NCBI GenBank assembly: GCA_947172415.1
Contig: OX359189.1
Coordinates: forward strand, 6,834,501 to 6,898,500
Reading direction: 5' to 3'
DNA: 64,000 bases
DNA from: Chondrosia reniformis
Taxonomy: Eukaryota > Porifera > Demospongiae > Chondrillida > Chondrillidae
The first letter of the stretch is position 1. Each line of letters begins with the position of its first letter. Made by a program: the position numbers and the translations under genes. Shown here piece after piece: positions 1 through 64,000 of the stretch. The notes beneath the pieces are model-generated. The model made no database searches, was not told the DNA's origin, and saw nothing but the letters and a program-made list of their open reading frames with translations.

Positions 1-1926
1 ACAGTTGAGACACAAATTTGTGGTGCACATAGTCTCACTGATGTTATACAGACAGTGGAAGGAGGTATACATACATATGTTTGTATGAGGGATTGTGTAC
101 ATATATAATTACGGTACAGACCAAAGTAACGCTTGCACTCGAGTGCCTCAAGCTCGTGAGTGATAATCATATCGAGAATATAACGAGGGGTAAAGCGAGT
201 GCTCAGGACATCAAAGGCGTTAATAATTGTATATTGCTATCAAAAGGTGTCAAAAATACTCAAAAGCCCCCTGAAAGCGCTACTCGGGAATTGAGACAAT
301 ACCGAATTATTTGACTATAATAGCACTCGAGTTTTTGAGTGACTCGCTCTCGAATCTCGCAAGTGTAAGCATTACTTTTGGTCTGTACTGTATATAATTA
401 ACTCAGATACTGAATCAGATGGTGTGGAGTGTGCATTTTGAAGTATATTTACAGCTACCAGTTACATTGAAAGTGATTAGAATTAGAAAGGTTACTGAAT
501 TTGATAGTTTCTTAGATTTTGTTTCATTATCACATGAAATTAACATTCCATATTTTAATATGGTATATAAGATTTACGTGTATTAATCATTCATTCTTTT
601 GAGAGGATCATCTTTTGACTTCACAATTTTGTTGTCTCTCTTGAGCATGCATCAGATGTTTTGACCCCTTTTTCAGTACTAATCATGTAGGTTACAAGAT
701 CTGATGATATAAAAAGTGTGTGATAGGTGTAAATATAATAAGAATGTAATTCAAATAACTGTATTCAAAGTGTGAGATGGATAATATTATGTTTACATTG
801 ATTTAATTGGCTGCAAATGTCATAAGACAATGTTGAAAAGTGAGGCAATTGAAGTATGACAAGTTGACCTATAGCATACGTGTATATGTAAGGAACGTGA
901 AAAATTGTAGAAACATTCGATCAAGCATGACACTTAAGATGTGCATGTTCTAATAGCCAGTAGTCATGATTGTGACTTGAGTATAGAGATCACAAGGAAA
1001 AGGTAGTTTTAACTTTTGTTGTAAAACTTATACAAATAGCTATTCTTCTAACTTATATACACTAATAGAGTAAGGATTTCTTCTAACTGCATCGAACTTA
1101 TCTTTGAAAAGGGTCATCTTTCGACTTTTGGGAACGTCTAGAGACGCAGTTTTTTGGTTCTTCTTGCCAGACGTTTCGACCCTGGGGGTCTTCTTCAGTG
1201 ACTGATGTTGGTGATCTTCAAGGTGTCTCTAGATGTTCCCAAAATTTGAAAGATGACCCTTTCCAAAGATTATATACACTATTTAGCTATTTCCTGTAAA
1301 TCTTTAGAATATCTTGAAGCCTTCACAGCAGTGGCTGTAGGAGATAGGATTGATGTTAGCTACATATCTGCTTGTCCAAATCTTCAAAATATTTACTGTC
1401 GCTTTAATATTTCTGAGATTCAGTCACTTCCAGTTAGCACTCTTCTAGTGGCGTTTGCTGGCAGAGAAGCAAAAGGAAGTTTTCCATATATAAGAGAAGG
1501 TGTATACACAGTATCTGTGACTCTATTGTATAGCAATGGATCAGTTATCTCAGGAAGTACAGTCCAGAGACAAGTGGAAGTGGTATCAGGTATGGCCTTT
1601 TGTTTACATGTACTATTAATGGACTTTAAACACTAGCTGTTGTTTGTTTATTCATAGAATCTGGTTCAGTATTAACTACAGGAGCTGCTGTTGGTATATC
1701 AGTTGCCGTATGTGTGTTTATAATGATACTACTAGTAATCACCTCTTTCTTCCTGGGATGTCTCTTTGGAAAGAAAAGGGCCTCTTCTGATAATTGTCAG
1801 GAGTCAAGAGAAAGTAAGATTGCTTCAACTGTCACTAACAAACAAGGTAGTGCTTGTTATGAAGCAATAGAAGTGGAACAGAAAGTCAGTTTGGAAACAA
1901 ATCCTGCTTATGGAGTGCTGAAGTGA
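1..1926 (+). CDS. R1: Ig/FN3-type receptor, 3' part only (NPAY tail)
   Basis: This is the 3' portion of a type I membrane receptor whose 5' exons lie left of the window. Exons seen: 1-64 (end of an FN3 domain, like 15065-15128 of R6), 1287-1589 (fourth, Cys-containing domain related to those of R7, R9 and R10) and 1658-1926 (transmembrane segment plus tail in one exon). All joins are phase 1. The tail has a basic stop-transfer stretch, then CYEAIEV, and ends in NPAYGVLK and TGA; it is nearly identical to the R4 tail. I see no exon for the split third domain between 64 and 1287, so R1 may have lost it; palindromic elements occupy much of that intron. An AATAAA lies at 2127-2132. The receptor role is inferred from architecture. 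Confidence 0.7.
105..400. mobile_element. MITE-like element with terminal inverted repeats in R1 intron
   Basis: The ends, near 105-130 and 372-400, are inverted copies built around ACAGACCAAAGTAA, and internal stretches (CACTCGAG and neighbours) are also mirrored. There is no coding capacity, so this is a non-autonomous DNA-transposon type element. Family unknown. Confidence 0.65.
1102..1268. mobile_element. Short hairpin MITE beside the R1 splice acceptor
   Basis: Inverted ends of about 44 bp (1102-1145 and 1224-1268) share AAGGGTCATCTTTCGAC and GAACGTCTAGAGAC. The middle contains the motif ACGTTTCGACC followed by GGTCTTC, which recurs in several other hairpin elements of the window. The element ends about 20 bp upstream of the R1 exon at 1287. 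Degenerate relatives lie near 595-665, 32395-32520 and 49905-50020. Confidence 0.7.
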
Positions 1927-2300
1927 CTTAACATCCACTAATACATGAAACATGTACAGAGTAACAATGTGGAGATTAACTCTTTGTAGATGTGTATATA
2001 TATACCATTCAGTGCTTGTAGTCAATGTGTGTGATTGTGTGACAATTTCTAATTATAGAATTTAGTATTTTTGTATCTCTTATTGTGTGCAAAGAGCTTT
2101 TCAAAGACTGACTAACTTGTACCGTTAATAAACATATATAGTTGGTTATTTGCATGTTATATATATAACTGTACAGGAAATATATATATATAAGGAAATA
2201 GAAATGCTCTATATAGCTAAGCATTACAAATATGGAGCTTGAAAAATATCACACAAGACGCAATTACATGCAGCTCCTAATAAGGTAATGCTAGTAGTCA

Positions 2301-2516: not shown

Positions 2517-2519
2517 ATA

Positions 2520-3360: not shown

Positions 3361-4270
3361 ATGTTTATTTTTCTGACGATCTTACTTTTACAGTTATCAG
3401 TACATCTCTCTCTTGGTCAAAGCATAGGTCAAAGTAGGTTCATATAGACTTGACTAGATGTAACATTTTTCGTTATCGACTGTAATTATAAACAGGTTTA
3501 ACTTTAACAAGTACAGTTAGCGGAAATATTTGTGATGGCGAATCAGTTACTTTTACGTGTACGGGAAGGAACATTGTATACAACTGGTTTATCCATGGCT
3601 TGATTGAAGAAGGAGATAGAATAACAATAGAGGCTACTGCCAGAGATTTGAGTGATCGACCATCAGGACGTTTCTCCACTACTGCATGATGAAGCGGGTG
3701 GTATTCCTGAGTCAAACCTCATGATCTCTGATTTTACAACTGCTGACAATGGAGCAGTGATTTTCTGTAGCGATGTCATGCAATAATCCAACTGTGTTAA
3801 GTAGTACCCACATTGATTGGAGTTGGTGAGTTGTAGTCATTTTTAATAATAAATGACATCTTTACAGATCAAGAAGCAAAATTAATACAGTTAGTTCTAC
3901 AAATGGTATAGATGGCTATATTAGTAACACAATTTGACTCACTCTTCTTAAAGAAGTCAACTTTTAAAGTCGATTTTACTGTATTTACCTGGGACTCCCT
4001 TGTGTAATTATATAAAAGGAACCCTGACTTATGTACTACATTTCATCACAAAGCATTCTATATTACTTCTTCTTATTATGCAGGTCCATTAAACCTGATC
4101 ACGACATTTTCTTCATCTGGTGTGAACAGCATATCATTATCTTGGGACTGTGTTGGATCAGGTTGTCGTCCTACGCAGTACATGATCAAGTGATCTGAAA
4201 GTGGAATGAACAAGAACCAAACTACTACCAGTGACACATCATACACTATAAGAGGACTTGATGGATGTAC

Positions 4271-4436
4271 AGCTAGTACATACAAGTAGTACATATACCT
4301 AGTATATAGACATATATATATATAGTACATGTAAATAGTACGTACAACTAGTATATATAACTAGAACAAACAACTAGTACATACACCCAGTACATACAAA
4401 TGTAACGAGTACATATAAGTAGTACATACAACTGGT
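4271..4436. repeat. Simple-repeat insertion inside the R2 FN3 exon
   Basis: About 166 bp of irregular repeats of AGTACATA and CTAGTA replace the point where R6 reads straight through (near 15045). The exon is 430 bp instead of 264 bp. It destroys the FN3 frame. Confidence 0.8.
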
Positions 4437-5537
4437 AAACTATTCAGTAACAGTTGAGACACTAGTTTGTGGTGGACATAGTCTCACTGAGGTTATACAG
4501 ACAGTTGAAGGAGGTACATAAATGGATACGTTTGTAGGGGATTGTGTACATAATTATAATAGGCTCGGCTACTGATGCACTTGAAGTTGAAAGTATATAT
4601 TTTAATTATAAAATAGTTTTGTAATTCAACAAAATTTATCAACATGTTATATAATATTTGTATATACGTAGCTCCAGGACCTGTTCCAGAGGATACCGAT
4701 GTAAATCTTCGATTATTTAATGAGAGTTTTTGCAACTTGGAACTATTGATCAGCACCCCAGTAAGTTAGTTTTTGTGTGTTTCATTTACTCAATGTAGTT
4801 ATATACTGTATTTTTTGCACATTTCTTGACTTGTGTTTCTAGATCTCAAGAGATGATGTTTGTGATGATACAACAATCAATATTGAGATTACTGTTAACA
4901 GTGATGGAGATCCTTTCAGTGACACAGTAGAGTACATGAGGAGTGGTCAAGTGTACCCTACCAATATATACCTACCAGTGGGTAGTAACTTTACTGCTGA
5001 GATCTGTGCTGTAACACCTGTTGGACGTGGACATTGTGCAATTCTTGAGGAAGGTATTCTGATACTCCTGCAAGTAGTGACAGATTTAGTGGGAGCTTTC
5101 CTATAATTTAGACACAATAATATAGAATCCATAGTTTTCAAAACATTTTATATATTCATTGTTTTCACTAGCAGTTAATTACTCTGTGTATATTTATATA
5201 TATACGTATGAATGTATGTCTGGATCTATAAAATATATATGTTCAGATTAGGAAACTTTAAAAGTCTTTTGAATTTTGTATTGTCTGATATTTGCCAGAC
5301 AGTGTTAAATCAGGAGCTACAGCTGGAATATCAGTGGGTGTGGTTGTTGGAGTAGTCACATGCACGTGCACAGTTCTGTGTGTAGCAGTTGGAACAAGTG
5401 TTATCGTATGTCTGATTATTTGTATAAGAAGGAGAGTGAAACATTCTAGTGAGTATATATGTTGGTATGATTAGTTGTACGTATAGGACTTTGTCAATGT
5501 TATATATTGATGTACATATATATGTAGAAAAGCGCTT

Positions 5538-5720
5538 TAGTTTGAATGAGTCTCAGCAACACAGAATTTCTTAATTTATTGCTAAATAAGACCTCCAGGT
5601 CATGATCAAACATTCAATTGCTTGAAAATTGTGGATAAAGATACATGACAGGGGATTTGGAGGAGTCTTCTCTTTCTTCTTTTGCTCCACTGGGCCAGAC
5701 AGATGATTCTTGGAATATAC
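5538..5720. repeat. Repeat relic in R2 tail intron, shared with R6 (16140-16325)
   Basis: The stretch contains GAGTCTCAGCAACA and AAGACCTCCAGGTC, recognisable from the hairpin element at 54494-54822. An adjacent segment near 5655-5700 on the minus strand reads like the acidic end of the R7 tail. Both are decayed and present in both twins, so they predate the R2/R6 duplication. Confidence 0.45.
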
Positions 5721-6916
5721 CACGTATGCTTCATTATGATTCAGTGACCCTATATATATAGGCCTGATGAATGTCTAAAGTTATTCTTTGAATCCTTTGC
5801 AGTAGATGTTATGTGGATTATAATCCTATATAACAGATCCTAATTATAAAATGATCATGATCGATTCATGCAAATAATATTGCTACATATATAGCAATCG
5901 TTGTATATAGTGTCTCAGGCCTAGGATTGTATAATTCATATTTTACTCCTGTGTGTATTTCATGTGTCATGTGTTACTTATTACACAGATAATCATGAAT
6001 AGAAACCTTTTACTATACCATTATATAGTGGATTATGTACCTACGTACATCTTGATCTAGTGCTTGCTGTTGTATGTCAGTATATATAACATCATATGTG
6101 TATTCTAATTTAGAACCCCAAACTGGAGGACCAACGGTTGCTTATGAGGATGTTACCAAGGACTATGAGAAACAGGAAGACGTTATATATATGGATGTAG
6201 ATCTAAAGCACTCTGTAGGAAATGTAAAGATGGAGACTAACCCTGCTTATGGAGCTGTATACAGTAACTAGTGACTCAGAATAAACACTTTGACTACAAT
6301 GTATGTACTTGTAGACTATAATATGTATATGTGTAAATATACCTATCTACATATCGTTTTGCATTCAAACTGATACTGCTACTGGTAACATCATAAATGT
6401 ACGTATATGATATCACATATCATAATAAATCAAGTATATACATTACTAGCCTATTCAGCCTGAGCTATTCACAGAGCAGTACACATGATCAATTGCTAAT
6501 GAATACCAAGCCCTGGTATGGCTTCTACAACTACTGTATGTCAATGTATGTTGTGCATATAAACAACACAATAAATATACAGAAATGCTTAATTATGGAG
6601 ATTGTCCTAGGTAAAAATGTACATGTAATTCCAAAAGCACTGTAATCCATTTATACAAAATGAAATCTAACCTACAGGGAGAATAATGATAAGATTATAA
6701 CATAAACACCTGGTAAATAAATGTATTAATAAACGTATTAATACGTATTTATTGCATTTTTAGTTGAGTTAAAATTACACCATTCTAAGTTAATTTACGT
6801 GTTATCTTCCTATTATTAAAGACAATTTCAGTAGAATAGTGAAGCTGGATTTGCATGAGATGTGATTTTATTTATAAAAATAATAAAGTGAAATGGATCA
6901 ACTAACCTCATGCAAG

Positions 6917-8989
6917 TCACTCATTATTTCCCTCCGGCTTATCCTTTTTGGTATTGTCTACAACTGCATACGTCACCATTTCCACTTCCTTCTTACTCTG
7001 AGGGGGAGGGGGTTTTGGTTGAGAGTTGTCAAATTTAAGGTCAGCATATTGCACTCCCTCTTGCTTCTTATTCTTTGCATCAGGATCTACTTTAGTGTGT
7101 GTAGCGCCTTCTTGATCTCTAAAGAGGGAAAATGTATATTATATGTAACAGATATATGCCACGATGAAGGTTGAAACAAAGCATGCAGTAAATACTATCC
7201 CTAGATATAATAATGTTTTCTCTTGTACCTTTCCTGGGATCCTATATAGAGAGACAAAAAGGGATTAATTAAAAGATTGGAGAAATAATAACAACAAAAG
7301 CATTACTAGAGTACCTTGATTACTCTTCTTCTTCTTCAGATAGTAGTAGCACCCGATAACTATACACACAACTACTACAATCACCAGGATACATACTAGC
7401 GCTACACCAACACCAATACCAGCTATTACTGCATCAGATAAGCCTTCTGCAATGACTGTAAAGCAAGTGTGGTAACTGCTATATTGATAAAGTAGAGCCA
7501 ATGACATACCTGTAGTAGCTGTAGGGGGAGATGCCTTCTCATACATTTTACACTGTCCACGTCCAACAGTTGTTACAGCACAGATCTCAGCAGTGAAGGA
7601 CCTTCCCACTGGTAGGTATATATTGGTAGGGTACACTTGACCACTCCTCATGTACTCTACTGTGTCACTGAAAGTTACTCCATTACTGTTAACAGTAATC
7701 TCAATATTGATTGTTGTATCATCACAAATATCATCTCTTGAGATCTGGAAAACATGATTTGTGTAAAAGACAATAATGTGATGTGAGTAATGGACACTGG
7801 TAACTTATATTACTTGTGTTTTGATCAATATTTCCAAGTTGCTAAAGCTTTCATTAAATGATCGGAGATTTACTTCACTGTCCCCTGGAACAGGTCCTGG
7901 AACTACATATATAAGCATTAACTTAGGAATAGCTCATAATACGTAGAATGTGCAAAGGATGACAATATGAATGCAAACCTCCTTCCATTGTAGGAATAAC
8001 ATTTATAAAGTTACTTGTACCACATCTGTGTTCCCCCTCAACTGTTACAGAATAGCTAGTGCATCCATTCAGTCCAGTTATAGTGTATGCCATAGTACTA
8101 GTAATCATCTGTTTCTCTGTCATTCCAATCTCTGACCACTTTACTAAATATTCTGAAGGAGGACAACTTGATCCAACACAGTCCCAAGATAATGATATGT
8201 TGTTCACACCAGATGAGGAAGATGTCTTGGTCAATTTAAATGGACCTATGTAGGTAACACAAACAAGTATTTTAGTGTATTTTAGTGTATTTAATTATGC
8301 ATATTTAGATAGGTGGGATAAAACATACAATAAATAAAAATTAGAAGGTCAATGTTTCCTTGCACACGTCTATATATAATATATTTTACCTAGCTCTTTT
8401 AAATGTAAATATACAGTCATTTAGAATAGCACTTCACTTCTTACCCTATAAGATGTTGATTTATTAATACTATCACTACAACTTACCAACTCCAACTGTG
8501 ATGTTGGTACTACTAAATAATGTTGGGTTAAGGGCATCACTACAGTAAATCACTGCTTCATTGTCAGCAGTTGTAAAATTAGAGATCATGAGGTTTGACT
8601 CAGGAATACCACCCGCTGCATCAGTAGTGGAGAAACGTCCTGATGGTGGATCACTTAGAACTCTAGCAGTCGTCTCCCTAATATCTCCTTCCCCGTTCAA
8701 ACCAAAGATGTACCAGTTAAATACAGTGTTACTTCCATTTGTGGTACATGTAAAAGTAGCTGATTCTCCATCACAAAGATCACCACTAACTGTACTTGTT
8801 AAAGTTAGACCTGTAAAATGTATAACAAGTTAAGAAATAACAAAAAAACAATTTAGTCAGTATAATTATAGTCTAAAGCGAAAACAAGTTAAATAACTAC
8901 ATACTTATAGAACTACTTTAAACAGATAGCTCACTTTGACCAGTTATGTTGTCAACCAAGAGAATGATTCCAAGAACTAAGAACAACAT
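6917..8989 (-). CDS. R3: Ig/FN3 receptor with tandem ITIM-like tail
   Basis: Eight exons: 8935-8989, 8487-8810, 7979-8245, 7814-7902, 7510-7744, 7315-7455, 7229-7241, 6917-7118; 1326 nt, 441 codons plus stop, all phases consistent. Signal peptide 1-18; Ig-like domain to about 126 (CDGE, FTC, then W and a GL turn); FN3 to about 215 (SLSWDC, YLVKWSE, GCTSYSV); split third domain to about 323; transmembrane helix about 335-360 followed by KKKK. The tail has VQYADL (Y399) and VTYAVV (Y425), both matching the ITIM consensus, separated by a PKPPPP stretch that could bind SH3 domains. It ends earlier than the R5 tail, at EGNNE. It is divergent from R4 and convergent with R2. An inhibitory signalling role through SH2 phosphatases is inferred, not shown. 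Confidence 0.85.
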
Positions 8990-10543
8990 TGAGCGATCAC
9001 GAGCAACTATTTCTTCAGCTTCAAATTTCTGCAAATTTCTTGCGTCCGTAAAGGTAAAACCCTAATATCAAGGTGATTATGTAATCTGTAAGTTTGATTT
9101 CATCATAAATGGATCTAGGCTTGTTACTTTTGCAGTGTTTTCTACCACTCTCAATTAGTCAAAGTGAGAAATATTTTCATGTAGCTTAAAACTGTCACAA
9201 TGAATTACGTATTTTAATTTATTAGAACTCTCTGTTATAAACAGGTCTAACTTTAACAAGTACAGTTAGTGGTGATCTTTGTGATGGAGAATCAGCTACT
9301 TTTATGTGTACCACAACTGGAAGTAACACTGTATTTAACTGGTTCATATTTGGTTTGAACGGGGAAGGAGATATTAGGGAGACGACTGCTAGAGTTCTAA
9401 GTGATCCACCATCAGGACGTTTCTCCACAACTGATACACTGGGTGGCATCCCTGAGTCAAACGTCGTCATCTCTAATTTTACAACTGCTGACAATGGAGC
9501 AGTGATTTACTGTGCCGATGCCCTTAACCCAACATTATTTAGTAGTACCAACATCACAGTTGGAGTTGGTAAGTTGTAGTGATAGTATTAATAAATCAAC
9601 ATCTTATAGGGTAAGAAGTGAAGTGCTATTCTAAATGACTGTATATTTACATTTAAAAGAGCTAGGTAAAATATATTATATATAGACGTGTGCAAGGAAA
9701 CATTGACCTTCTAATTTTTATTTATTGTATGTTTTATCCCACCTATCTAAATATGCATAATTAAATACACTAAAATACACTAAAATACTTGTTTGTGTTA
9801 CCTACATAGGTCCATTTAAATTGACCAAGACATCTTCCTCATCTGGTGTGAACAACATATCATTATCTTGGGACTGTGTTGGATCAGGTTGTCCTTCAGA
9901 ATATTTAGTAAAGTGGTCAGAGATTGGAATGACAGAGAAACAGATGAGTACTAGTAATATGGTATGCACTATAACTGGACTGAATGGATGCACTAACTAT
10001 TCTGTAACAGTTGAGGGGGAACACAGATGTGGTACAAGTAACTTCATAAATGTTATTCAGACAATGGAAGGAGGTTTGTATTCATATTGTCATCCTTTGC
10101 ACATTCTACGTATTATGAGATATTCCTAAGTGCTTATTATCTAGTTCCAGGACCTGTTCTAGAGGACAGTGAAGTAAATCTCCGATCATTTAATGAAAGC
10201 TTTAGCAACTTGGAAATATTGATCAAAACACAAGTAATATAAGTTACTAGTGTCCATTACTCACATCACATTATTGTCTTTTACACAAATCATGTTTTCC
10301 AGATCTCAAGAGATGATATTTGTGATGATACAACAATCAATATTGAGATTACTGTTAACAGTAATGGAGTAACTTTCAGTGATACAGTAGAGTACATGAG
10401 GAGTGGTCAAGTGTACCCTACCAATATATACCTACCAGTGGGAAGTAACTTCACTGCTGAGATCTGTGCTGTAACACCTGTTGGACGTCGACAATGCATA
10501 ATGTATAAGAAGACCTTTTGTTTCTCAACTACTACAGGTACAG
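7510..10543. repeat. Large inverted repeat: mirrored R3 and R4 ectodomain exons
   Basis: Arms of about 1.3 kb (roughly 7530-8810 and 9245-10520) are near-identical in inverted orientation, including introns. The 241-bp intron after the Ig exon (8246-8486 versus 9569-9809) appears identical base for base. The spacer of about 434 bp holds the two different leader exons and the shared promoter. Similarity stops at the exon before the membrane segment, where the two genes take different transmembrane and tail exons. Confidence 0.9.
8990..9108. promoter_or_regulatory. Shared divergent promoter of R3 and R4
   Basis: Only 119 bp separate the R3 and R4 start codons, so both 5' regions and the core promoters must lie here or overlap the leaders. 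Blocks such as AAAACCCTAATATCAAGGTG and AAGTTTGATTTCATCATAA recur in 13857-13956 between R5 and the relic leader, which suggests preserved elements or recent common origin. I see no clear TATA box. Confidence 0.6.
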
Positions 10544-10868
10544 GTATGTACAATTATATATTTTGAACTTATGTTCTACTGTTGTTTGTTTATTCATAGA
10601 ATCTGGTTCAGTATTAACTACAGGAGCTGCTGTTGGTATATCAGTTGCCGTATGTGTGTTTATAATGATACTACTAACAATCGCCTCTTTCTTCCTGGGA
10701 TGTCTCTTTGGAAAGAAAAGGGCCTCTTCTGATAATCGTCAGGAGTCAAGAGAAAGTAAGAGTGCCTCAACTGTCACTAACAAACAAGGTGGTGCTTCTT
10801 ATGAGACAATAGAAGTGGAGCAGAAAGTCAGTTTGGAAACAAATCCTGCTTATGGAGTGCTGAAGTGA
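9109..10868 (+). CDS. R4: Ig/FN3 receptor with NPAY tail
   Basis: Six exons: 9109-9163, 9245-9568, 9810-10073, 10145-10233, 10303-10537 (or 10543), 10600-10868; 1236 nt, 411 codons plus stop (413 with the alternative donor). Signal peptide is rich in Leu and ends SISQ. The Ig (NWFIFGL, NGAVIYC), FN3 (SLSWDC, YLVKWSE) and split third domain mirror R3. The last exon encodes both the transmembrane helix, followed by GKKRAS, and the tail: SYETIEV, then a C-terminal NPAYGVLK (Y407). NPxY motifs bind PTB domains or clathrin adaptors in other animals. The FN3 lacks one codon present in R3. The tail is nearly the same as in R1 and unrelated to that of R3, so ectodomain and tail have separate histories. 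Confidence 0.85.
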
Positions 10869-11419: not shown

Positions 11420-13856
11420 TTACAAACACAACTTATATTTATCGTCAGCATATTCCGGCTTATCCTTTTTGGTATTGTCTACAACCGCATACGTCACCAT
11501 TTCCACTTCCTTCTTACTCTGAGGGGGAGGAGGTTTTGGTTGAGAGTGTTCAAATTTAAGGTCGGCATATTCCACTCCCTCATGCTTCTCATTCTTAGCA
11601 TCAGGGTCTACGTATACTTTAGTGTGTGTAGCACCTTCTTGATCTCTGAAGAGGGAAAATATATAATAGATATATGCCACGAAACAATGAATGTGGTAAA
11701 TACTATATCCCTATATATACTGCATATTGTTTTCTCTTGTACCTTTCCTGGGATCCTATATAGAGAGACCAAATGGGAGTAATTAAAAGATTGGACACTA
11801 ACAACACAATAGCATTACTCGAGTACCTTTTATTCCTACATTACTCTTTTTCTTCTTCTTCTTCTGATAGTAGTAGCACCCGATAACTATACACACAACT
11901 ACTACAATCACCAGGATACATACCAGAGGTACACCCACGTGCACACCAATACCAGCTATTACTCCATCAGATAAACCTCAAGTATGGTAACTGATATTGA
12001 TAAAGTAGAGCCACTGGCATACATACCTTTAGTAGCGGTAGGGGGAAATGCCTTCTTATACATTATACATTGTCCACGTCCAACAGGTGTTACAGCACAG
12101 ATCTCAGCAGTAAAGTTACTTCCCACTGGTAGATATATATTGGTAGGGTACACTTGACCACTCCCCATGTACTCTACTGTGTCACTGAAAGGTACTCCAT
12201 CACTGTTAACAATAATCTCAATATTGATTGCTGTACCATCACAAATATTATCTCTTGGGATCTGGAAAACATGTGTAAAAGACAAAATATATAATAATGT
12301 GATGTGAGTAATGGACATTAGTAACATATATTACTTGTGTTTTGATCAATATTTCCAAGTTGTCAAAACTGTCATTAAATGATTGGAGATGTACTTCACT
12401 GTCCTCTGGAACAGGTCCTGGAGCTATATATATATATAAGCATTAACTTAGGAATAGCTCATAATACGTAGAATGTGCAAAGGAAGACAATATGAATACA
12501 AACCTCCTTCCATTGTCTGAATAACATTTATGAAGTTACTTGTTCCACATCTGTGTTCCCCCTCAACTGTTACAGAATAGTTAGTGCATCCATTCAGTCC
12601 AGTTATAGTATATGCCATATTATTAGTACTCATCTGTTTCTCTGTCATTCCAATCTCAGACCACTTTACTAAATATTCTGAAGGACGACAACCTGATCCA
12701 ACACAGTCCCAAGATAATGATACGTTGTTCACACCAGATGAAGAAGATGTCTTGATCAGGTTAAATGGACCTGCATATGAAGAAGTAATATACAATGCAT
12801 TGCAATGATATATACATAAAGCAAGGTTCCTTTTAGTATATAAATACCATGCACTGGGACTGGTACAAAATTGAGGAGATAACCAGATTCAATACATTTG
12901 CTTGCTATTACATTTTGACTTTTTTAAGAAGAGGTTGTCAAATTGTGTGTGAATATCCCCCCTAGATTAAAGAAAGGAATGTGAGGAAGTCAAGAGACTT
13001 TCTTTAAAAATGTCAATTTTATTTTGTATATATAGTATACATTATACGTAGTCTCGCGTAGCCCAGACCGCTATCTCGCCTCATATCTCGCCGACCGTGT
13101 GACGTCATAATATAAATATGGAGGCGAGATAGCGGTCTGGGCTACGCGAGACTACATTATAAGTATGTAGCTCTTTTAAGTATAAATTTAAGTATATATA
13201 GTCATCTGTATGATCTTTAGAAATGTATTTGCTCATTGATCTGTAAAGATGCTGATTTATTATTACAAATCATTTCAACTCACCAATTCCAATCGTGATG
13301 TTGGTACTACTAAACACAGTTGGATTAAGGGCATCGTTACAGTAAATCACTGTTCCATTGTCAGCAGTTGTAAACCCAGAGATCATGAGGTGTGACTGAG
13401 GAATGAAACCCGCTGCATCAGTTGTGGAGAAACGTCCTGATGATCGTGATTGTAAAGCTCTGGCAGGAAAATGTATTATATCTACTTCACCATTCAAACC
13501 AAAGATGAACCAGTAGAATATTGTGTTCCTTCCGGTTGTGGTACACGTAAAAGTAGCTAACAACAAGTTACATTACACATTAGGAATCCGTGGAATGGTG
13601 AGTGCCTACGACGCATGATCCGGTTTCCTGTCTCCTGTTGCGTTTATATATAGTCTAGATCTGTAGCCGCCATTCGCTCCACATTGTTAGCAAATTATAA
13701 GAAATAACAAAAGAACAGATCGGTCAAAAGAAATAAGTAAAAAAACTACATACTTATAGAACTACTTTAACACGTAAAAACAGATTATTTTAGCTCACTT
13801 TGACCAGTTATGTTGTCAAACAAGAGAATGATTCCAAGAACTAAGAATAACAACAT
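11420..13856 (-). CDS. R5: ITIM-tail receptor with shortened Ig domain
   Basis: Eight exons: 13799-13856, 13284-13556, 12504-12770, 12335-12423, 12027-12261, 11827-11976, 11743-11755, 11420-11645; 1311 nt, 436 codons plus stop. Leader and layout match R3. The Ig exon has lost about 50 nt at its 5' end, including strand A and the first cysteine (the CDGE region); a TTAG exactly at the break can act as acceptor and keeps the frame, giving TTFTC directly after the leader. The acceptor before the membrane exon (TTGAG) is weak. The tail holds VEYADL (Y388), VTYAVV (Y414), the PKPPPP linker and two more tyrosines, Y427 and Y432, absent from R3. It may be a working receptor with an altered Ig fold, or an early pseudogene. 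Confidence 0.7.
13048..13155. mobile_element. Perfect 33-bp terminal-repeat palindromic MITE
   Basis: 13048-13080 and 13123-13155 are exact inverted copies beginning GTAGTCTCGCGTAGCCCAGA, around a 42-bp centre that includes TGACGTCA. It is noticeably more GC- and CpG-rich than its surroundings and sits in the R5 intron between Ig and FN3 exons. Perfect arms suggest a recent insertion. Confidence 0.85.
13560..13700. other. Foreign block replacing the 5' end of the R5 Ig exon
   Basis: About 120 bp here (core about 13570-13690) have no counterpart in R3 or R4 and are richer in CpG. Beyond it, similarity to the R3 leader intron resumes (AAATAACAAAAGAACA). It marks the deletion or insertion that removed the first Ig strand of R5. 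Confidence 0.5.
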
Positions 13857-13956: not shown

Positions 13957-14064
13957 ATGGATTTAGGGTTTTTGTTACTTTTGCAGTGTTTTCTGCCACT
14001 CTCAATTAGTCAAAGTGAGAAAATAACTTTAACAAGTACAATCAGTGGTGGTGGTGGTGGCTAA
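13957..14064 (+). pseudogene. Relic leader and Ig start of a vanished R4-like gene
   Basis: ATGGATTTAGGG opens a signal peptide almost identical to that of R4, ending AGTCAAA and a GTGAGA donor. Directly after it lies the first piece of an Ig exon (AACTTTAACAAGTACA) that runs into a GGT repeat and stops. The rest of the gene is missing, and R6 starts 115 bp on. The relic shows that R5 once had an R4-like head-to-head partner. Confidence 0.65.
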
Positions 14065-47500: not shown

Positions 47501-47847
47501 ATAGATGTTCTAGCTATATATAGCTATGTGTATTGCCAGACTATACTAATGATCATATACAATGAATATAAATTGTTTCATGATGGTTCGCTCATATATA
47601 TTTTGTATATACATCATATAGGTCTATATAATCACTTAAGTTTTTTATATCACTTTATTGGTATTTTAATATAGTTATGCAAGATTATGAAGTTTCGCAA
47701 AATTTTGAAGGAATTAATAATACTGTCACTTATAAGAATTGCATACACAAAGAAAAAGTAATCTATGACGAGCCAATGAATATTATACATATGCCTGATA
47801 AGGAGAACATTGACATGACCACTAATCCTGCTTATGATGAATTGTAA
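44527..47847 (+). CDS. R9: four-domain receptor with NPAY tail
   Basis: Eight exons: 44527-44590, 44855-45172, 45244-45540, 45614-45702, 45991-46228, 46568-46879, 47092-47229, 47675-47847; 1629 nt, 542 codons plus stop. Signal peptide (FTLLLILLS); Ig domain (LELCDGD, FQCRP, VWCISGL, DTGAVIKC); FN3 (NMVIWNIS, YELTWAE, YRVTVHLYNKCG); split third domain; fourth Cys-rich domain (VVVTCKTSC, EFKCQS); transmembrane helix, then WCRRDRD; tail with DYEV (Y490), TYKN (Y505), IYDE (Y516) and C-terminal NPAYDEL (Y539). The Ig exon start at 44855 was chosen because its VTLLPFGSLELC aligns with other family exons and keeps phase 1. Its neighbour R10 is convergent, 306 bp apart at the stops. Confidence 0.85.
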
Positions 47848-54201: not shown

Positions 54202-57200
54202 TCAAGCATGCATTTCAACTTTAGCATAGCCTTCCTGATCAATCTTAACAGGATTCTCTTTAATTTCTAACTTTGACCTGTCTACTGGCTTTAGTGAAGC
54301 ATATTCACTTGGTGATTCAGCAGCATGACTTGCTTCTTGTCTTTCATCAGTTTTTGTTTCTGTAGCTTTGGGATAAGAAGATGAAGATTTCACTGAAATA
54401 TCAATTTAAAAATATTTTTGAGGAGGCTTAGAATAATTATATAGATACACATTCGTTTTAATGAAGTAATAAGGGGTTTTTGTTGCGTTCATAATGAGTA
54501 TACTAATTTATTGAGACTCAGCAACAATTGTATTTAAAAACAAATTGAACGTTTCAACCTGGAGGTCTTGACTCTGGACCCTATTTGGAAAGACATCTAT
54601 TTGACCCATCAACACATGTTTTCATTAAATTTATTTTTATCCTCATTAATTATTCACCGCCTTTTTACATTACATCTTCACTCAACTCATGTCACAATTT
54701 TTCTATTTAAAAAGCTTGTAATCCCCTCTTCCTCATTATGCTGATGAAGACCTCCGGGTCGAAACGTTCAATTTGTTTTTAAATACAATTGTTGCTGAGT
54801 CTCAATAAATTAGTATACTCATTCAATTTAATATACAACTGCAGTTAAAAGATTAATAAAATCTTTTGTCATCATATATACATTGTGTATTTATTAAGAA
54901 ATAACATTTAAAACCAGACATTAACATAATTTCTGAAAACAATTATAGGGGAGCCTACGGCGCCCAAAAAGAAGAATTGACATTTGTTGGCTTACCTTTA
55001 GTGCATTTAATTAAATAGAAGCAGATTACAATACTAGCAGCAATCAAAATTAAGAAGCATAATATTCCTATAATTACACCAGCAATGCCACCAGGAGACA
55101 GTGAGTTGGATGCTACATATAGTAGATAAGAGATATAACAAGAAATTGCTGTGCACGTTATGCAAGTTAAATTAAATGGTATCTTTTTATACAACATACA
55201 TTCCAGTGACATATACAAATTATACATACTCTCTGATATAAAAGTGATACTGCAATTAAGTAAAACTCCTGATATCACTTTCAACTGTGGTGCATGTGTT
55301 TATACAGTTATACTGTATAAGTTATCTGTAGTTAAAGCCCTGAGGTTAGGACTACATATATATACGCATGCATAGCCAAGTTTAAATATTGGTAAAATCT
55401 GCAACTTCTCGACTGGGTTGTTTTAAACCTATAATATTAGACCAAGATTCTAATATTTAAGTGCTATTGATACATATAAATTTTGAAGTGATCGTATTGT
55501 TATTGATTTTGCAGGCGAAAATGGTCTAGAATTGTGAAAAGTGGCCTTCAGGCAGTTAACTGTTTTATGCTGCATTGTCATGGCATTCAAGTAGCCCAGT
55601 ATTTATAATACAGAGAAGAAATGAGTAATATTTATTCAGTGACTAAAGAATAACAGAAAAATTAAAATGGATGCCAAATTTATAATTAGTGACTGGATAT
55701 ATATACATGTAATATGTTATGGCCCAATGTATGGGGTGCCAAACGTGTCAAAATGTAGCATTCTCTCTGTTAGGGATATCAGGCTCTGATATAAAACATA
55801 TCATGACCTGATATATATGCATACATATCATAAGCTGATATTAAAACATATCATAAGCTGATATTAAAACATATCATAAGCTGATATTAAAACATATCAT
55901 AAGCTGATATGAAAACATATCAGGACCTGATATTAAAACATATCATAAGCTGATATGAAAACATATCAGGACCTGATATTAAAACATATCATAAGCTGAT
56001 ATGTTTTCATATCAGCTTATGTTATGTTTTAATATCAGCTTATGATATGTATGCATATATATCAGGTCATGATATGTTTTATATCAGAGCCTGATATCCC
56101 TAACAGAGAGAATGCTACATTTTGACACGTTTGGCACCCCATACCAACGAATACTAGTATATATACCACTCATGCAGGAATTATGAGTATGACCCAGGAT
56201 GTGTTTCAATAGGAAAGGCTAAAGGTTAAACTCTGACTTCTTCCTGTGTTAAAGCATGTCACCCTGTGGTCAATTTATTTTACCCTCAGTCCTTCCACCC
56301 TTGGGAGATGTATGTATATATGATTGATCACCTCAGTAACTGGTAACACCTCCATATATATATAGATCAGTATAATAGTAGTATTATTGTTAATCAGCAT
56401 TTCACACGGTATATATGGCATAATATACTCCGTTGCCAGGGCAACCGCCTGTGTTTAAATTTCGTAACCGTGCTATAACAGGATTTAGGAAGCTATATAC
56501 TGCATTGGCTTCTTAAATCCTGTTATATCCCTGACCAAATATGGTAAACTAAGACGTTTCTACTTGGAGGGTGGACTATTCTCCTTTCATTTAGGACAGT
56601 TGGAGTAGTCAGGGCAAGAGCATTCTATGAAGTCGTCAGCGTTTAAGCAAAACCAACTAGATGCTAGATGAACCATCCTGAAAGTCCCGCCAAAATAACG
56701 ATAAAAAACGACGGAGTATATATCACTCATACCACACTTTGTGTATATGGTAACGCGCCCTTGTGACTCGTACGCATAAAATCCATATACACCTCAGCGC
56801 CGTGGTATAATTAATACTTATAATGTTCCCCATTACAGTCCATTACCATGTCATTAGCTCTTAAGGTATAAACTCACCACTTTCCCCATCACTTTCATCT
56901 CCATTTACAGTAATAACTTTCATTTCAGTGACAATATTATCTGACACAAGTTCAACTATAATCCTTTGAATGGGTTGAGCATCATTCTCTATTGTTAAAT
57001 TCAATTCAGCTCTTCCATTAATGAAGTTTTCAGTGACACTCCACTCTGTATTGTTAAATGGATATGCTCGACATTGAAAGTGTTGGCTCAGTATGTCAAT
57101 ATTACAACTAGATCTGCATGTGACTGTGTATAGCTTGTCTTTCACTTTCAAATCAACTTGAAGAATGTTATCAGAACCTATATATATATGTACGTACAAA

Positions 57201-58956
57201 GCTATTTTGATAAAATGGATAAATTAATATGTACATATTTACCTTCAAAATTAACATACATAATTATGAAAATGTGACTTTTATATAATACAGCTGTAAA
57301 CTTTGTAACTCACTGTGATTATAAGAAAACAATTTTATACTTCTGAATCATTAATTTGATATAACACACACTTACATAAATAAATTAGTCTCGGGAATAC
57401 AAAATTACATAATACAATTATATATGTTCTGGTGTTCCACATAATAATAATAGCATATATATCACACACATATATACAAATATATAGGTACATTATAATG
57501 TTTACTTGGTATCGGTTGTGTTTCCTCAAATCCTTTTCCTTGTGTGGACACAGTTATATAGTTGTTTCCCACTGGCAGTACAAAAGGTGAAGTACTGTAC
57601 AACACGTCTCTTCCTCTGTACACTTCACTACCAGTTGCTATAACCACTCCTCGTTCACTTGTCACATTGTATGTCAGGTTGACACCAAACATTGAAAAAC
57701 ATTCATTAACATGGATATCTGTAAACTTCAAAAAACCATAATTACTATTATATATGAACTGATAACATGAAATATATCATAAAAACATAATATTATTATA
57801 TGTAGCAATGCAGCAGTATCTAATGTTATATAAATAACTGTTACAATTACCTCAACCATAAAGTGAATTTTTCCGCGTGGACACAATGATTCACTTTTTA
57901 TAGTTAAGACCATTCCTCCTTTGAATTCTACTGAATTTACAAAGGAATATTAATATAATCTGTCATATAGAACAAAGTTCATTATAACTTTGGTGTTGAA
58001 AATACTTTTTAACCTGTTCACATACAATGAGAGTCTCTTTTGATGGTATAAACTACTATATAGTACTTAGAGGAAACAGAATATTATGTATATAATATGA
58101 TCATATCGAAAAGTTTAAAACTAAGCATCTTCTTCCTCTATATCTGTGCTATCAGCATTACTGATACATGCAGAAAGCTTGAATAAAATATATATCAAGA
58201 ACACAATATACTCTATCATTCAATAAGACATGTACAAGCATTAAATCACAATTCACCAACTAAAATTTCAGCCAATGTACTTGAATCCAATTTACTGTCA
58301 ACACACTGTAGAGTAGCTCCAGTATCTTCAGGTACCAAATTAAGAATGGTCAATAGTGATGGATTGGCACCATGATTAACATCAGGTGAGGTGAAACGTA
58401 TTCCTTTTGTATTTAAACTAAATGCTGTTATTGAAGTTTCATTTGAAACACCACTCAATCCTCTGATTGTCCAAAAGGATGGTCCCTCAGTCGGTGTACA
58501 AGTAAAGTTTTGGTTCTCCCCTTCACATAACTGTAATCTTCCGTTTGGAATAAGCTGAGGATCTATTACGAATATACGTATAAATAATAGTATACGTACG
58601 TAATACGGTATAAAGGGTTGCATGTCGATCAATTTTTTTATTATAATAATATAATCACATTTTTATAGGGATATTGCTTGAAAGGGGGAGTATTATTGCC
58701 ATTATCCTGTACTGTCTTCCATGGGACTTAGACAAGAGATCTAGACCACTTTAAAATGTATCTTAAACTTAAAGTAAAGTTTTACTGTAGTATTATAGAT
58801 AACCAATGTAATTATGAATATACTTATATACGTTTAATGTACACTTTAAGATTATACACATTCTCAATATCTAATAAACCTACTCTGTTCTGTCGTGACC
58901 AAAATATTCTGACAGATTACCACGAAGTAGAAAGAGTATGGCAAATGCGTTGCCAT
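54202..58956 (-). CDS. R11: receptor lacking the FN3 exon, ITIM-like tail
   Basis: Seven exons: 58884-58956, 58257-58562, 57851-57930, 57506-57725, 56878-57177, 54996-55112, 54202-54392; 1287 nt, 428 codons plus stop. The leader (YFVVICQNILV) is followed by an Ig domain (QLCEGE, FTCTP, FWTIRGL, TGATLQC) nearly the same as in R12. The FN3 exon found in R12 is absent from the 326 bp before the next exon; because domain exons are phase 1-1, the frame survives. Then come the split third domain (FTDIHVNECF), the fourth domain (YTVTCRSSC, QHFQCRAY), the transmembrane helix, and a tail with SEYASL (Y396, full ITIM match) and GYAKV (Y421, near-match). The 1.8-kb intron before the membrane exon holds a large palindrome. 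Confidence 0.8.
54494..54822. mobile_element. Hairpin MITE with about 80-bp arms in R11 tail intron
   Basis: TGAGTATACTAATTTATTGA and its complement bound the element. Inner arms include AATTGAACGTTTCAACCTGG against CTCCGGGTCGAAACGTTCAA. It is the best-preserved member of the GAAGACCTCYGGGTCGAAACG family here. Confidence 0.75.
55730..56143. mobile_element. 414-bp palindromic element with internal ATATCATAAGCTGATAT repeats
   Basis: Terminal inverted repeats of about 110 bp start TATGGGGTGCCAAACGTGTC. Inside, ACATATCATAAGCTGATATT units are repeated several times in tandem, with some CAGGACCTGAT variants, each itself a small palindrome. It lies in the R11 intron and is non-coding. Confidence 0.8.
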
Positions 58957-59883: not shown

Positions 59884-62800
59884 CTACATACTGCTGATTA
59901 CCCCATAAGCTGGGTTGGCCTCCATTTTCACATTCTGAAGATTTTCATTTACTTCTTCATAGGCAGCATTGTCCTGTTCCTTGACAGACACTATAGAATA
60001 TTGACTGTGATGCAATATGTAATCTCTATCAAATATTTGAGTGGCAAATTTCTTTTAACTTTTATTTAATTTATTTCTATTAAATATAACACACTGCATG
60101 TATATATGTGCCCATATATATAGCAACAGCACGTGTTTTCAGGAGAATAAGAACTGTATAAGCTTAATTTTTGGTCCAAGTTTGGTAAATATTGGTGTTT
60201 ATGGTATATCTCATTTGAAAACATGATATTTGAGAATGTTTATACAGGATTTTAATTGGCACCATACACCCTGCAGTCCTGTACTGAGAAACTTTTCAAA
60301 ATATATAAATTTAGTACCTAAAAACGTACCTGTATACATACATATGTCAGAATGAGAGTGGCTGTAAAAAGGTTGAAAGACTTGTACAAATTTATCTTTC
60401 ACAATCACATACACAGAAATAAATAAGAGTTGTCACTAGACAATTCACATGGCATGTATGCACAAATTTATATGAATAATTGATTCAAAAGTGATAATCA
60501 TACCACAAGCAATTATAATCAGTCTCAACTGTCATGAAGAGGAAATCACAAAAGAAGCTATTGCTGGGAATTGAACCCAGGACAATCAAACAGCTGGTTA
60601 TGACCACCAGTTGCTCTACCACTGAGCTACAATTGCCACAGCAATATGATGTACATATGAAATTAGTATACATAACTTAATTCCAAATTACCTTTAGACC
60701 ATTTCTTGTAAGCCAGGTTCAGGACAACAGAAACAACTGTTGCAATTATGCTTAGAAGAACTAATCCTGCTAGAACTGCTCCAGCAATTACACCAGGAAA
60801 CAAAGCTTGGATAGCTATATAGTTATACGATATGTACTTATAAGTTGTAATAACGGTACCGGTGTGGCTATATATATAAGCATAATATTACCATTACCTA
60901 AGCTCTACTTAATAAATTTAAATCCATTCACAATATACTATGTGAATAACTTCTACGTGACTAAGTTCTAGTATGCTAATTTGATTGGGTAACCACACTA
61001 GCCAAATTCAAGAACAAATTTTCAGACATTTGACCTAATCCAGGGTATTCATCATTGAAATATAGATAGACACTTACATACGTAGTCTGACTGGTATTTA
61101 TGCACGCAAAAGAGGAGGACAAAGGGGTGGGAAAGTGTAATTGTATGAATGTCTAAAAGATTGTCAGATAAAATAATAGAGTAAAATGATGAGTAAAGAG
61201 ACTCAGGTTTCCAACATAGTCAGATGGACCAGTGGGATGTACACTGGGTAGAGGCCCTTCATTCCAGTTATATTGTGCCACGCTATCCGGATGTGCCATG
61301 CCACTAAAGCACATCTCTGCTGGTAACACTTGTGATGGTTCACCACCTCTACTTCCTCATGTGGGACTCATCTATTGCATTCTCCACAACCGCTGACCGG
61401 AGCATCCTGCCAGTCTGGACAATGTAGATTTTGGGGCACATCCCAGCGGGGATCCTGTGCACAATACCAGCTCTCTGCATTGTGGCATTACAGGGTCTCT
61501 TACTTGGACCAATATTAATGTCTGGTACGCAGTGTGCAGTGTGGACGGAAATAGGTTCCATTCCCCTCTGTCCCTCCATTTTATAATCACATGTGTGTAT
61601 ATAAATACCAATCAATTTTGTAAGTGTCTAATATATCACGTTACCAGGGCAACCGGGTGATATCTGGGGTGTTACAAACCTTATATTTCACACTTGAACT
61701 AGTGATAAATGTTATATCACCAGTAGGCCAACATATATTTACTTATCATCACCTTACAATACCTTATTATGACGTTTACAATTGATTCAAGTCATATGTG
61801 ATACATATTAATTATACCACACTCAAGTGTGAAGCTAAGTGATATGCGCCTTCGTCTTGGGCAGATATCACTTATGCATCACACTTGAGTGTGGTATAAC
61901 TACTACATATAATTCACTGATGAGGATTGGCTAGTGTAGCTACCCAATCAAATTAGTATACTATATTTGAAAACTCACCACTTTCCCCATCACTTTCATC
62001 TCCCTTTACAGTAATAACTTTCATTTGAGTGACAATATTATCTGTCACAAGTTCAACTATAATCATTTGAATGGGTTGATTATCATTCTCTATTGTTAAA
62101 TTTATTTTAGCTCTTCCATTAGTGAAGTTTTCAGTTACACTCCACTCTGTATTGTTAAATGGATATGCTCTACATTGAAAGTGTTGGCTCAATATGTCAA
62201 TATTACAACTAGAGCTGCACGTGACTGTGTATAGCTTGTCTTCCACTTTCAAATCAACTTGAAGAATGTTATTCAATCCTGCAATGTAAATAAAATGGAT
62301 AATGTACTATGTACGTACATTCATTTACAACATAATATTGTGTACATCTAGTGTATATAAACTGCTACTTTATACATCTAAACATTCCTGATAGATTATA
62401 TTATTGTACATTGCCATTTTATAATACTGTCTGCCGTATGCAACAGATAATTGTGAGAGAATCAATAACATAATTACTCATTTCGTCAAAACCTTAATGT
62501 TTGCACTAACATACGTAAATTGGAAATATAAGACACATGTTATATGACATACATACATATAAATGATACATATTTATTTATGTTATAGAAGTATTACACA
62601 TTTACTTGGTATTGGTTGTGTTTCCTCAAATCCTTTTCCTTGTGTGGACACAGTTATATAGTTGTTTCCCACTGGCAGTACAAAAAGTGAAGTACTGTAC
62701 AACACGTCTCTTTCTCTGTACACTTCACTACCAGTTGCTATAGCCACTCCTCGTTCACTTGTCACATTGTATGTTAGGTTGATGCCAAACATTGAAAAAC

Positions 62801-64000
62801 ATTCATTAACAAGAATATCTGTGAACTTCAAAAATATTACAAAAGTTTTCATTAGAACTCAAGTATATAGAGTGCTATTGGAAATTGATATAGGTATATT
62901 TATTTGCGCTCTTAGTAAATATACGTACGTATATATACAGCGGTATCTAATGGTATAACTAACAAAAAATATATGTATAATACATATTCTAAAATGTATA
63001 CCTATACCTCAATCATAAAATGATAATTTCCACGTGGACATAATGATTCATTTTTGACAGTCAGAACCATTCCTCCTTGTGCTGCACTTGCAAAAGGTAC
63101 AATGGATGTCTCAATTTAATCTTTACGTTAGTAAAAGCTTGTATATAATTCTTATTTTTACACATAACATTAACTTACATAAGAAGTCTGTTCTGATTGG
63201 TTTCAAGTCTCTAGTTCCACATTTGTTGTACAGTGATATATTTATTGCATTATCCTTGCAAGTTGTCACATTAATACTGTAGAATGTCTTATTGATACTC
63301 ATAGAAGATGACACAATGCCCTCATTCTCAATCTCACTCCAAGTTACTTTATATTCTGTTGGTTTCACAGTACAAGTACTCACATTCCAACTAACTCTTA
63401 ATACGTCAGGTGAGCTTACAGTAACTTTGGGAAATATTGAGCTACAACTTGGGGGTCCTGTAATGATTTTTTTGGAAAAGACAAAGCCAGGAAATCTATT
63501 CAGAGAAAATCTACAACAATTTATGGAACAGTGGCATTCAGAAAAGACAATACTAATGGTCATGGATATATGAGTGAAGAAGGAGACTTCTTATAATATA
63601 GTTAAAATCCAAAACTTGAAGCTATAATTTCTGATGCCCAGAAACTTATATACTCTATCATTCAGTAAGACATTACATGTGTATAGACTCACCAACTAAA
63701 ATTTCAGCCAATGTACTTGAATCCAATTTACTGTTAAGACACTGTACAGTAGCTCCAGTATCTTCAGGTACCAAATTAAGAATGGTCAGTACTGATGGAT
63801 TAGCAGCTGGGTCAACATCAGGAGAGGAGAAACGTATTCCTGTTATATTTAAACCAAATGCTGATACTGTAGTTTGATCAGAAACACCACTCAATCCTCT
63901 AAATGTCCAAAAGGATGTCCCCTCAGGCTCAGTCGGTGTACAAGTAAAGTTTTGGTTCTCCCCTTCACAGAACTGCAATCTTCCATTTGGATTAAGCTGA
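59884..64000 (-). CDS. R12: four-domain receptor with NPAY tail, 5' end off-window
   Basis: Exons in view: 63693 to beyond 64000 (Ig: FCEGE, FTCTP, FWTFRGL, TGATVQC), 63179-63457 (FN3: RVSWN, YKVTWSE, YNKCGT), 63008-63081 and 62606-62825 (split third domain), 61979-62278 (fourth domain: YTVTCSSSC, HFQCRAY), 60692-60814 (transmembrane) and 59884-59990 (tail). Phases are consistent to the stop. The leader exon is outside the window. The tail has AYEEV and ends NPAYGVISSM, linking it to R1, R2/R6, R4 and R9. It is a tandem paralogue of R11 with a different tail: R11 carries an ITIM-like motif and R12 NPAY. The 1.2-kb intron before the membrane exon contains a composite mobile element. Confidence 0.8.
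60556..60637 (-). tRNA. tRNA-like sequence, possibly a pseudo-tRNA or SINE head
   Basis: It has an A-box-like TAGCTCAGTGGTAGAGC and a B-box-like GGGTTCAATTCC. The T arm pairs perfectly (CTGGG/CCCAG) and an anticodon-type stem pairs CTGGT with ACCAG around GGTCATA. The acceptor stem has one mismatch and one G-U pair, position 33 would not be U, and the variable region is long (about 12 nt). A working tRNA is therefore doubtful. It lies in the R12 intron next to the membrane exon, antisense to nothing, on the same strand as R12. Confidence 0.45.
61349..61615 (-). mobile_element. Fossil fragment of a GIY-YIG domain, Penelope-like
   Basis: Conceptual residues IVHRIPAG, CPKIYIVQTGR resemble the GIY-YIG endonuclease of Penelope-like retroelements (typical VYxIPC, KVYIGQTGR). 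The fragment is broken and short, without a reverse transcriptase, and is clearly inactive. It is more GC-rich than its flanks. Confidence 0.55.
61812..61900. mobile_element. Small palindromic MITE nested in the composite element
   Basis: TTATACCACACTCAAGTGTG and its complement at 61878-61899 form arms of about 35 bp around a 20-bp centre. Confidence 0.7.

Follow-up and report, generated by a model that had tools for sequence, protein, structure and literature searches.

The window analysed in this work, meaning the whole 64-kb stretch of DNA, has the character of animal genomic DNA with small introns (GC content no higher than 0.35 in 12 of its 16 4-kb steps) and holds 12 related genes for type I receptors, here called R1 to R12. 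Seven of them (R1-R7) lie between 1 and 20.3 kb and the other five (R8-R12) between 43.3 and 64 kb, other genes occupying the stretch that separates the two clusters. The family was found by an all-against-all comparison of open frames, followed by searches with profiles built from the matching frames. Its members have a V-like immunoglobulin (Ig) domain and FN3 domains, to which a membrane-proximal beta domain is often added, then a transmembrane (TM) helix and a tail, and a recurrent exon set encodes them: Ig-like, FN3-1, FN3-2 (a domain split by an intron), TM and tail exons. An exon for the membrane-proximal domain is present in R9-R12, and R1 and R7 have exons at a similar place that are not clearly similar to it. 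Profile searches recovered 11 Ig-like exons, giving 12 rows because a frameshift splits that of R2; for R1, which is truncated at the window edge, none lies within the window. Profile searches, exon sets and splice models all agree with the original prediction of one clustered family of 12 related Ig/FN3 receptors.

In the first cluster, R1 (1-1923, plus strand) retains the end of an FN3-1 exon (about 1-83), a membrane-proximal exon (about 1329-1589) and a TM and tail exon (1658-1923) ending in NPAYGVLK, its long first intron (83-1328) being a weak splice model. R2 (3361-6268, plus) has a signal peptide, Ig, FN3-1, FN3-2, a TM exon at 5313-5447 and a tail with VAYEDV, VIYMDV and NPAYGAV that runs to 6268; it is broken by a frameshift in the Ig exon, and by a stop and a 13-bp tandem insert (array 4268-4399) in the FN3-1 exon. 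R3 (6920-8989, minus) is a complete open frame of Ig, FN3-1, FN3-2, TM and a tail with VQYADL, VTYAVV and a PPPP stretch. R4 (9109-10865, plus), also a complete open frame, combines an R3-like ectodomain with an R1-like TM/tail exon (NPAYGVLK). R5 (11423-13856, minus) is an open frame with an R3-like tail (VEYADL, VTYAVV) and an Ig exon shortened by the loss of its N-terminal part, and R6 (14179-17051, plus) has Ig, FN3-1, FN3-2, TM and tail exons (VVYEDV, IIYMDV, NPAYGAV), with a frameshift from a deletion that leaves its TM exon 8 bp shorter than that of R2. The lesions of R2, R5 and R6 may be allelic or assembly errors. R7 (17498-20228, minus) has Ig, FN3-1, FN3-2, membrane-proximal and TM exons, and its tail exons are uncertain.

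The second cluster starts with R8 (43324-44360, minus), a small gene with a signal peptide, Ig, TM and a short tail, and no FN3. R9 (44860-47844, plus) has Ig, FN3-1, an FN3-2-like region, the membrane-proximal domain, TM and a tail ending in NPAYDEL. R10 (48157-52099, minus) carries the full ectodomain set of Ig, FN3-1, FN3-2 and membrane-proximal domain, then TM and a tail with EYAEL and NYAQI. R11 (54205-58554, minus), where no FN3-1 exon was found by profile search, has Ig, FN3-2, membrane-proximal domain, TM and a tail with SEYASL and EGYAKV. R12 (59887-63996, minus), whose upstream end falls outside the window, has Ig, FN3-1, FN3-2, membrane-proximal domain, TM and a tail with QYSIV, AYEEV and NPAYGVI. 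Splice-aware joins, run on nine of the 12 genes (R3, R4, R5 and R7-R12), gave nine stop-free models, each closing at a stop codon; from a signal-peptide-like start exon to the stop, R3, R4, R5 and R8 measure 444, 413, 438 and 192 amino acids. The signal exon was not assigned for R7, R9, R10 and R11, and that of R12 falls outside the window. Of 48 splice junctions 47 were placed (the one not placed is the FN3-2 junction of R12), and by hand count 38 are in phase 1, six in phase 0 and three in phase 2, a bias that is overstated because the splice score gave phase 1 a bonus. That the 12 exon sets are cassettes of fewer genes is ruled out for R3 and R4 by their opposite strands; judging from the layout, R10-R12, on the same strand, may be such cassettes.

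The nature of the ectodomain is supported by both domain searches and structure prediction, two of the checks proposed with the original prediction. The FN3-1 assignment is secure at the level of sequence comparison, as Pfam fn3 matches seven of eight FN3-1 exons (best E 3.9e-10) and the profile finds Dscam (2.7e-11) and fibronectin chains as its closest relatives in the PDB. The N-terminal domain can be taken as an Ig fold, a predicted assignment that rests on conserved residues, a model and matches to V-type structures. In the 10-row alignment of Ig exons C19, W28, D77 and C84 (the B-F cysteines and core tryptophan among them) are invariant; the best of five AlphaFold models has a confidence score (pLDDT) of 84.8, the lowest 40.6; and a Foldseek search of the PDB returns mostly V domains of antibodies, T-cell receptors and nanobodies (the best at E 4.1e-3, so that no hit reaches 0.001), with HLA chains in three of the 50 rows listed. 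Pfam Ig matches to single Ig exons are sub-threshold (Ig_3 in three of 10), and the top whole chain for the Ig profile in the PDB is carcinoembryonic antigen (3.5e-5), no single stretch passing alone. The membrane-proximal domain, modelled from four sequences, is beta-rich (pLDDT 83.9), with a best Foldseek E of 0.18 and none at or below 0.001; its weak sequence match to ribosomal protein L11 (E 0.026) was taken as chance. Scans for relatives of FN3-1 gave four pattern-matching stretches in viral contigs for the alignment and 54 in bacterial and archaeal contigs for the R3 exon, and tblastn confirmed no relative among either.

Eleven tails, all but that of R7, were compared pairwise with 300 shuffles each, and several kinds are present, as had been predicted. 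The tails of R3, R5, R10 and R11 are of a kind resembling the immunoreceptor tyrosine-based inhibitory motif (ITIM), with YAx[L/I/V], those of R1, R4, R2, R6, R12 and, weakly, R9 end in NPAY, and that of R8 has one tyrosine and no YxxPhi motif. The original list of tails stands for R3, R5 and R11 as ITIM-like and for R8 as having no motif; it left out R10, whose YAEL and YAQI are like those of R11, and the NPAY tail of R12 must be credited with an additional SQYSIV. Tail similarity exceeds that of all 300 shuffles between R3 and R5 (z 43), R1 and R4 (z 44), R12 and R6 (z 9.1) and R10 and R11 (z 4.9), is slight between R4 and R3 (z 1.9, 18 of 300 shuffles as high) and is nil between R11 and R12 (z 0.0, 133 of 300). 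The R3 and R5 tails, with VQYADL or VEYADL, VTYAVV and a PPPP stretch, have two strict ITIM matches each. Under the strict rule [ILVS]xYxx[ILV], SEYASL of R11 fits and YAEL and YAQI of R10 fail, the single strict match in R10 being a juxtamembrane VCYHKI that deserves no weight. The R2, R6 and R12 tails have two YxxV motifs at a spacing of 11 (R2, R6) or 9 (R12), which is near the spacing of the immunoreceptor tyrosine-based activation motif (ITAM), with V rather than L or I; strict ITIM matches are found among these motifs.

A motif test was made on seven representative tails, after dropping R1, R2 and R5 (near copies of R4, R6 and R3) and R8. I, L or V occupies position +3 of 17 of the 25 tyrosines (3.9 expected), two of them juxtamembrane (R3 YYYL, R10 VCYHKI), and there are seven strict ITIM matches (0.9 expected); neither count was equalled in 20000 shuffles, though both overstate the surprise because the tail exons were chosen partly by eye. 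Motifs kept between tails that have diverged are stronger evidence than these counts.

The clearest sign that ectodomains and tails have changed partners comes from R3 and R4, whose DNA is 95.3% identical over 1308 bp, introns included, from the Ig exon to 10540, and whose ectodomain proteins share 268 of 290 residues (92.4%). Beginning at 10579, R4 follows R1 instead, the identity being 90.4% across 417 bp that take in the TM/tail exon. The tail-swap breakpoint of R4 is thus confined to 10541-10578 (plus strand), between the end of the R3 match and the start of the R1 match, in or at the edge of the pre-TM intron (10544-10599). R3, on its part, can be aligned with R5 from FN3-1 through the tail (86.4%). 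The same is seen in R11 and R12. Two of their ectodomain exons agree at 94.7% and 95.7% of DNA positions; their similarity stops at the last ectodomain exon, the next 300 bp being at the shuffled level (72.8 vs 73.4%), and despite the close ectodomains the R11 tail matches that of R10 and the R12 tail that of R6. Approximately unbiased (AU) tests, on five rows each, reject the grouping of tail mates by ectodomain, both for R3 with R5 (p=0.0008, cost 31.5 log units) and for R10 with R11 (p=0.0105, cost 12.3 log units, long branches included). Single-exon trees are short, partly without resolution, and limited by the long branches of R7, R9 and R10. The separate ectodomain and tail histories that the original prediction had proposed to look for are borne out by these tests, and its claim that ectodomain similarity is independent of tail type is upheld by the AU tests, the DNA breakpoint, the tail shuffles and per-exon synonymous divergence (dS).

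Divergence is also patchy within the ectodomain. Between R3 and R6, dS changes along it from 0.49 and 0.64 to 0.20 and 0.06, exon by exon, in the manner of a mosaic. In 19 of the 29 exon comparisons (hand count), nonsynonymous divergence (dN) falls short of dS. R3 and R4 differ more in exons (42 of 908 sites) than in introns (four of 381; Fisher p=0.0008), also when the count excludes FN3-2b, an exon that reaches to the breakpoint (29 of 677, p=0.003). Their first ectodomain intron (8246-8486 in R3, 9569-9809 in R4) is identical at 241 of 241 positions, yet 18 of the 324 sites of the adjoining Ig exon differ (p=4e-5). At six of these 18 sites both states are found among R2, R5 and R6, seven differences are private to R4 and five to R3. 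Fast evolution of the exons by positive selection alone was set aside, since synonymous sites differ too and paralogs hold both states, and patchy gene conversion is therefore preferred; diversifying selection may also be acting. From these alignments, gene conversion or recombination among family members is the best explanation for both the swapped tails and the exon-patchy divergence. Ectodomains and tails have histories of their own because such events have parted the last ectodomain exon from the TM exon at least twice, which sequence comparison places in R3/R4 and in R11/R12.

R3 and R4 are also divergently arranged, with start codons at 8989 and 9109, 120 bp apart, and the 119 bp between them (8990-9108) may be a bidirectional promoter. 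The R3/R4 inter-start region is duplicated between R5 and R6 (82% DNA identity), where a relic R4-type signal-peptide exon is found (13957-14061, plus strand). R5 and the relic exon repeat the divergent arrangement of R3 and R4, and R6 lies beyond the relic. R8 and R9 are divergent as well, the start exon of R9 not being assigned. Of the genes in R3/R4 and R5/R6, those on the minus strand have ITIM-type tails and those on the plus strand end in NPAY (R6 with ITIM matches too), and in R8/R9 the former is without a motif and the latter NPAY-ending; with three cases, the pattern of strand and tail kind is suggestive only.

Other features of the window may be noted here. A Vps62 domain match (22920-23288, plus strand; Pfam PF06101, E 4.8e-5) lies between the receptor clusters. 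So does a tandem segmental duplication (27892-32325 and 32524-38522, 72-94% identity), carrying on the minus strand two paralogous genes for small secreted-looking proteins of no confident Pfam family (31823-32212 and 37995-38411). Two inverted 1.2-kb copies, 98% identical (38738-39934 and 40508-41697), are probably a recent mobile element, and a 160-bp relative of its end sits at 16372-16531, between the TM and tail exons of R6. Within R11, the intron modelled upstream of the TM exon contains 416 bp of self-complementary sequence that include a 23-bp tandem array (55729-56144). A tRNA-like sequence (60554-60637, minus strand) lies in R12, in the intron that separates TM from tail; ARAGORN calls it tRNA-SeC and Rfam a plain tRNA (48 bits). 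Its anticodon loop is irregular by eye, so that a tRNA-derived element is possible.

Taken together, these features suggest, with a probability of about 0.6, an invertebrate paired-receptor-like family, diversified by recombination between ectodomains and tails, the array working on the paired-receptor principle. It would be an array of genes, partly tandem and partly inverted, for single-pass receptors in which one Ig/FN3 ectodomain family has been joined to different tyrosine-tail cassettes, so that members sharing a binding face could send different, possibly opposite, signals. The ITIM-like tails may recruit SH2 phosphatases and dampen the response. The NPAY tails, with their NPxY of the type bound by phosphotyrosine-binding (PTB) domains and the YxxV pairs of R12, R2 and R6, may attract PTB or tandem-SH2 proteins and give rise to another kind of output, perhaps an activating one. 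R3 and R4 might be co-expressed from one promoter, in which case a cell could weigh both signals against one ligand, be it self, allogeneic or microbial. A bolder version can be put forward only tentatively. In it the host, an early-branching animal and plausibly a sponge, would have paired receptors in the true sense: divergent ITIM and NPAY/ITAM-like pairs with one binding face, co-expressed under one promoter and regenerated by tail exchange at the pre-TM intron.

Several observations weigh against such a family. The tails of R3/R5 and R10/R11 are united by motif only (z 2.1 for R3-R10, 1.4 for R3-R11, 0.2 for R5-R10 and 0.3 for R5-R11), and the R5 tail resembles those of R2 (z 5.0) and R6 (z 6.0), above all 300 shuffles, so the tail kinds are not fully separate. 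The NPAY-ending R2 and R6 tails also hold ITIM matches, and past its terminal NPAY the R9 tail has little in common with the others of its kind (z 2.3-4.7). Tail exons for the motif test were picked partly by their tyrosines. The Ig exons of R11 and R12 are only 86% identical, and in 10 of the 29 exon comparisons, mostly short or recent ones, dN is as high as dS or higher. With R2 broken, R6 frameshifted and R5 shortened, only some of the pairs are intact. To this must be added the absence of a charged residue from 11 of 11 TM helices (most hydrophobic 19-residue window, all genes but R6) and of a canonical ITAM (YxxL/I-x6-12-YxxL/I) from the 11 tails.

These last two results decide what the family should be called. 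The original prediction had it that shared ectodomains with different tails are what defines vertebrate paired receptors, which is not supported in that form: the published definition also includes an activating partner, short-tailed and with a basic TM residue through which it engages an ITAM adaptor (PMC3533184). Of the features of vertebrate paired receptors, the window has a small cluster (12 genes in 64 kb), similar ectodomains with different tails (R3/R4, R11/R12) and, by sequence motif, ITIM-bearing members (VQYADL and VTYAVV in R3, VEYADL and VTYAVV in R5). Even the short-tailed R8 has an uncharged TM. Because the defining activating partner was tested for and not found, the family is not filed with the vertebrate-type paired receptors. 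The label is weakened by this, but the mechanism is not, because tyrosines of its own tail may serve a receptor for signalling.

The alternative that survives best, although it is a doubtful one, is a homophilic or matrix adhesion/recognition family whose tails differ for trafficking and cytoskeletal docking, by NPxY endocytosis or PTB, SH2 and SH3 binding. NPxY is a classical PTB and endocytic signal, and NPAY is the common end of one tail kind. The nearness of the FN3-1 profile to Dscam and fibronectin, and of the Ig profile to carcinoembryonic antigen, although there no single stretch passes, would also agree with adhesion, to which, along with recognition, the Ig superfamily of sponges is mainly linked (PMC11999971). 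Against it stand the two strict ITIM matches in each of R3 and R5, and adhesion alone would hardly account for divergent genes that join near-identical ectodomains to different tails. Somewhat less probable still is a neutral birth-and-death of a tandem family, where tail exchange follows incidentally from frequent unequal recombination and pairing is not selected for. The damaged R2, R5 and R6, the inverted repeats and probable mobile DNA, the exon-patchy dS and the mosaic states at six of the 18 Ig-exon differences are what it would leave behind; complete open frames in R3, R4 and R8, a majority of comparisons (19 of 29) with dN below dS and tyrosine motifs retained across diverged tails are not. 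Cytokine-receptor-like or neural-type Ig/FN3 receptors with no immune link are very improbable, the lone weak Pfam matches in their favour (IL3Ra_N 0.0028 and Interfer-bind 0.018, each in one of eight FN3-1 exons; WSXWS and Box1 motifs were not searched for) being set against the plain fn3 matches in seven of these eight.

The paired-receptor-like reading is of importance because innate immunity in vertebrates relies at its core on receptors paired by opposing tails. For cnidarian and tunicate allorecognition, receptors with ITIMs have been reported (PMC12065747), and a true paired system in an early-branching animal would mean that the opposition of ITIM and other tails is older than the cnidarian and chordate versions, or convergent with them. 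Visible tail-swap breakpoints together with a head-to-head pair would show how receptor pairs arise, and R3 and R4 are concrete genes for asking whether opposing signals from one ligand, in self or microbe recognition, predate vertebrates.

If the host is a sponge, the family would fill a gap in the known receptor systems of these animals. The Ig profile has partial, sub-threshold matches (E 0.1) to PDB entries 8ovq ('Cell recognition molecule, long form') and 8qpx ('Receptor tyrosine kinase (Fragment)'), which we take to be sponge proteins, a Geodia adhesion molecule and an Ig receptor tyrosine kinase. No kinase exon was noticed in R1-R12, unlike in the latter. The available parts of the sponge literature describe adhesion Ig molecules (PMC11999971), and mention no such receptor family either among TIR-Ig receptors and NLR and SRCR expansions (PMC7308585) or in domain counts (PMC12723187). 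Among the open-access matches listed, no sponge system of this form was seen, which does not establish its absence from print, as subscription papers were outside the scope.

The paired Ig receptors of vertebrates (KIR, LILR, PILR and Siglec-11/16) are likewise clustered, with near-identical ectodomains on different tails and ITIM-bearing members (PMC3533184), and Siglec-11 and Siglec-16, partners that signal differently, are reported to have had their ectodomains homogenised by gene conversion (PMC5701461). The receptors of this window differ from them in that no partner with a charged TM or ITAM adaptor was found, in their Ig and FN3 ectodomain and in their NPAY-type second tail.

In invertebrates, the Alr proteins of Hydractinia have an ectodomain that differs from the FN3 domains of the receptors in this window. 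Compared by description only, the Alr genes are like R1-R12 in being candidate allorecognition genes with ITIM/ITAM-type motifs (PMC12065747). The FcoR of Botryllus are described as type I Ig receptors encoded at one locus, whose tyrosine motifs are of ITIM, hemITAM or single kind; each of them adjoins a fester-family partner with which it is expressed, and their tail motif is exchangeable (PMC12065747). They are unlike the present family in having a V-type Ig, a sushi and two C2 Ig domains where R1-R12 have FN3, and in swapping motifs by alternative splicing of some loci, whereas here the tail exchange is genomic. With regard to both Alr and FcoR, the family described in this work would thus be best seen as analogous, set apart by its Ig-FN3 architecture and its NPAY second tail.

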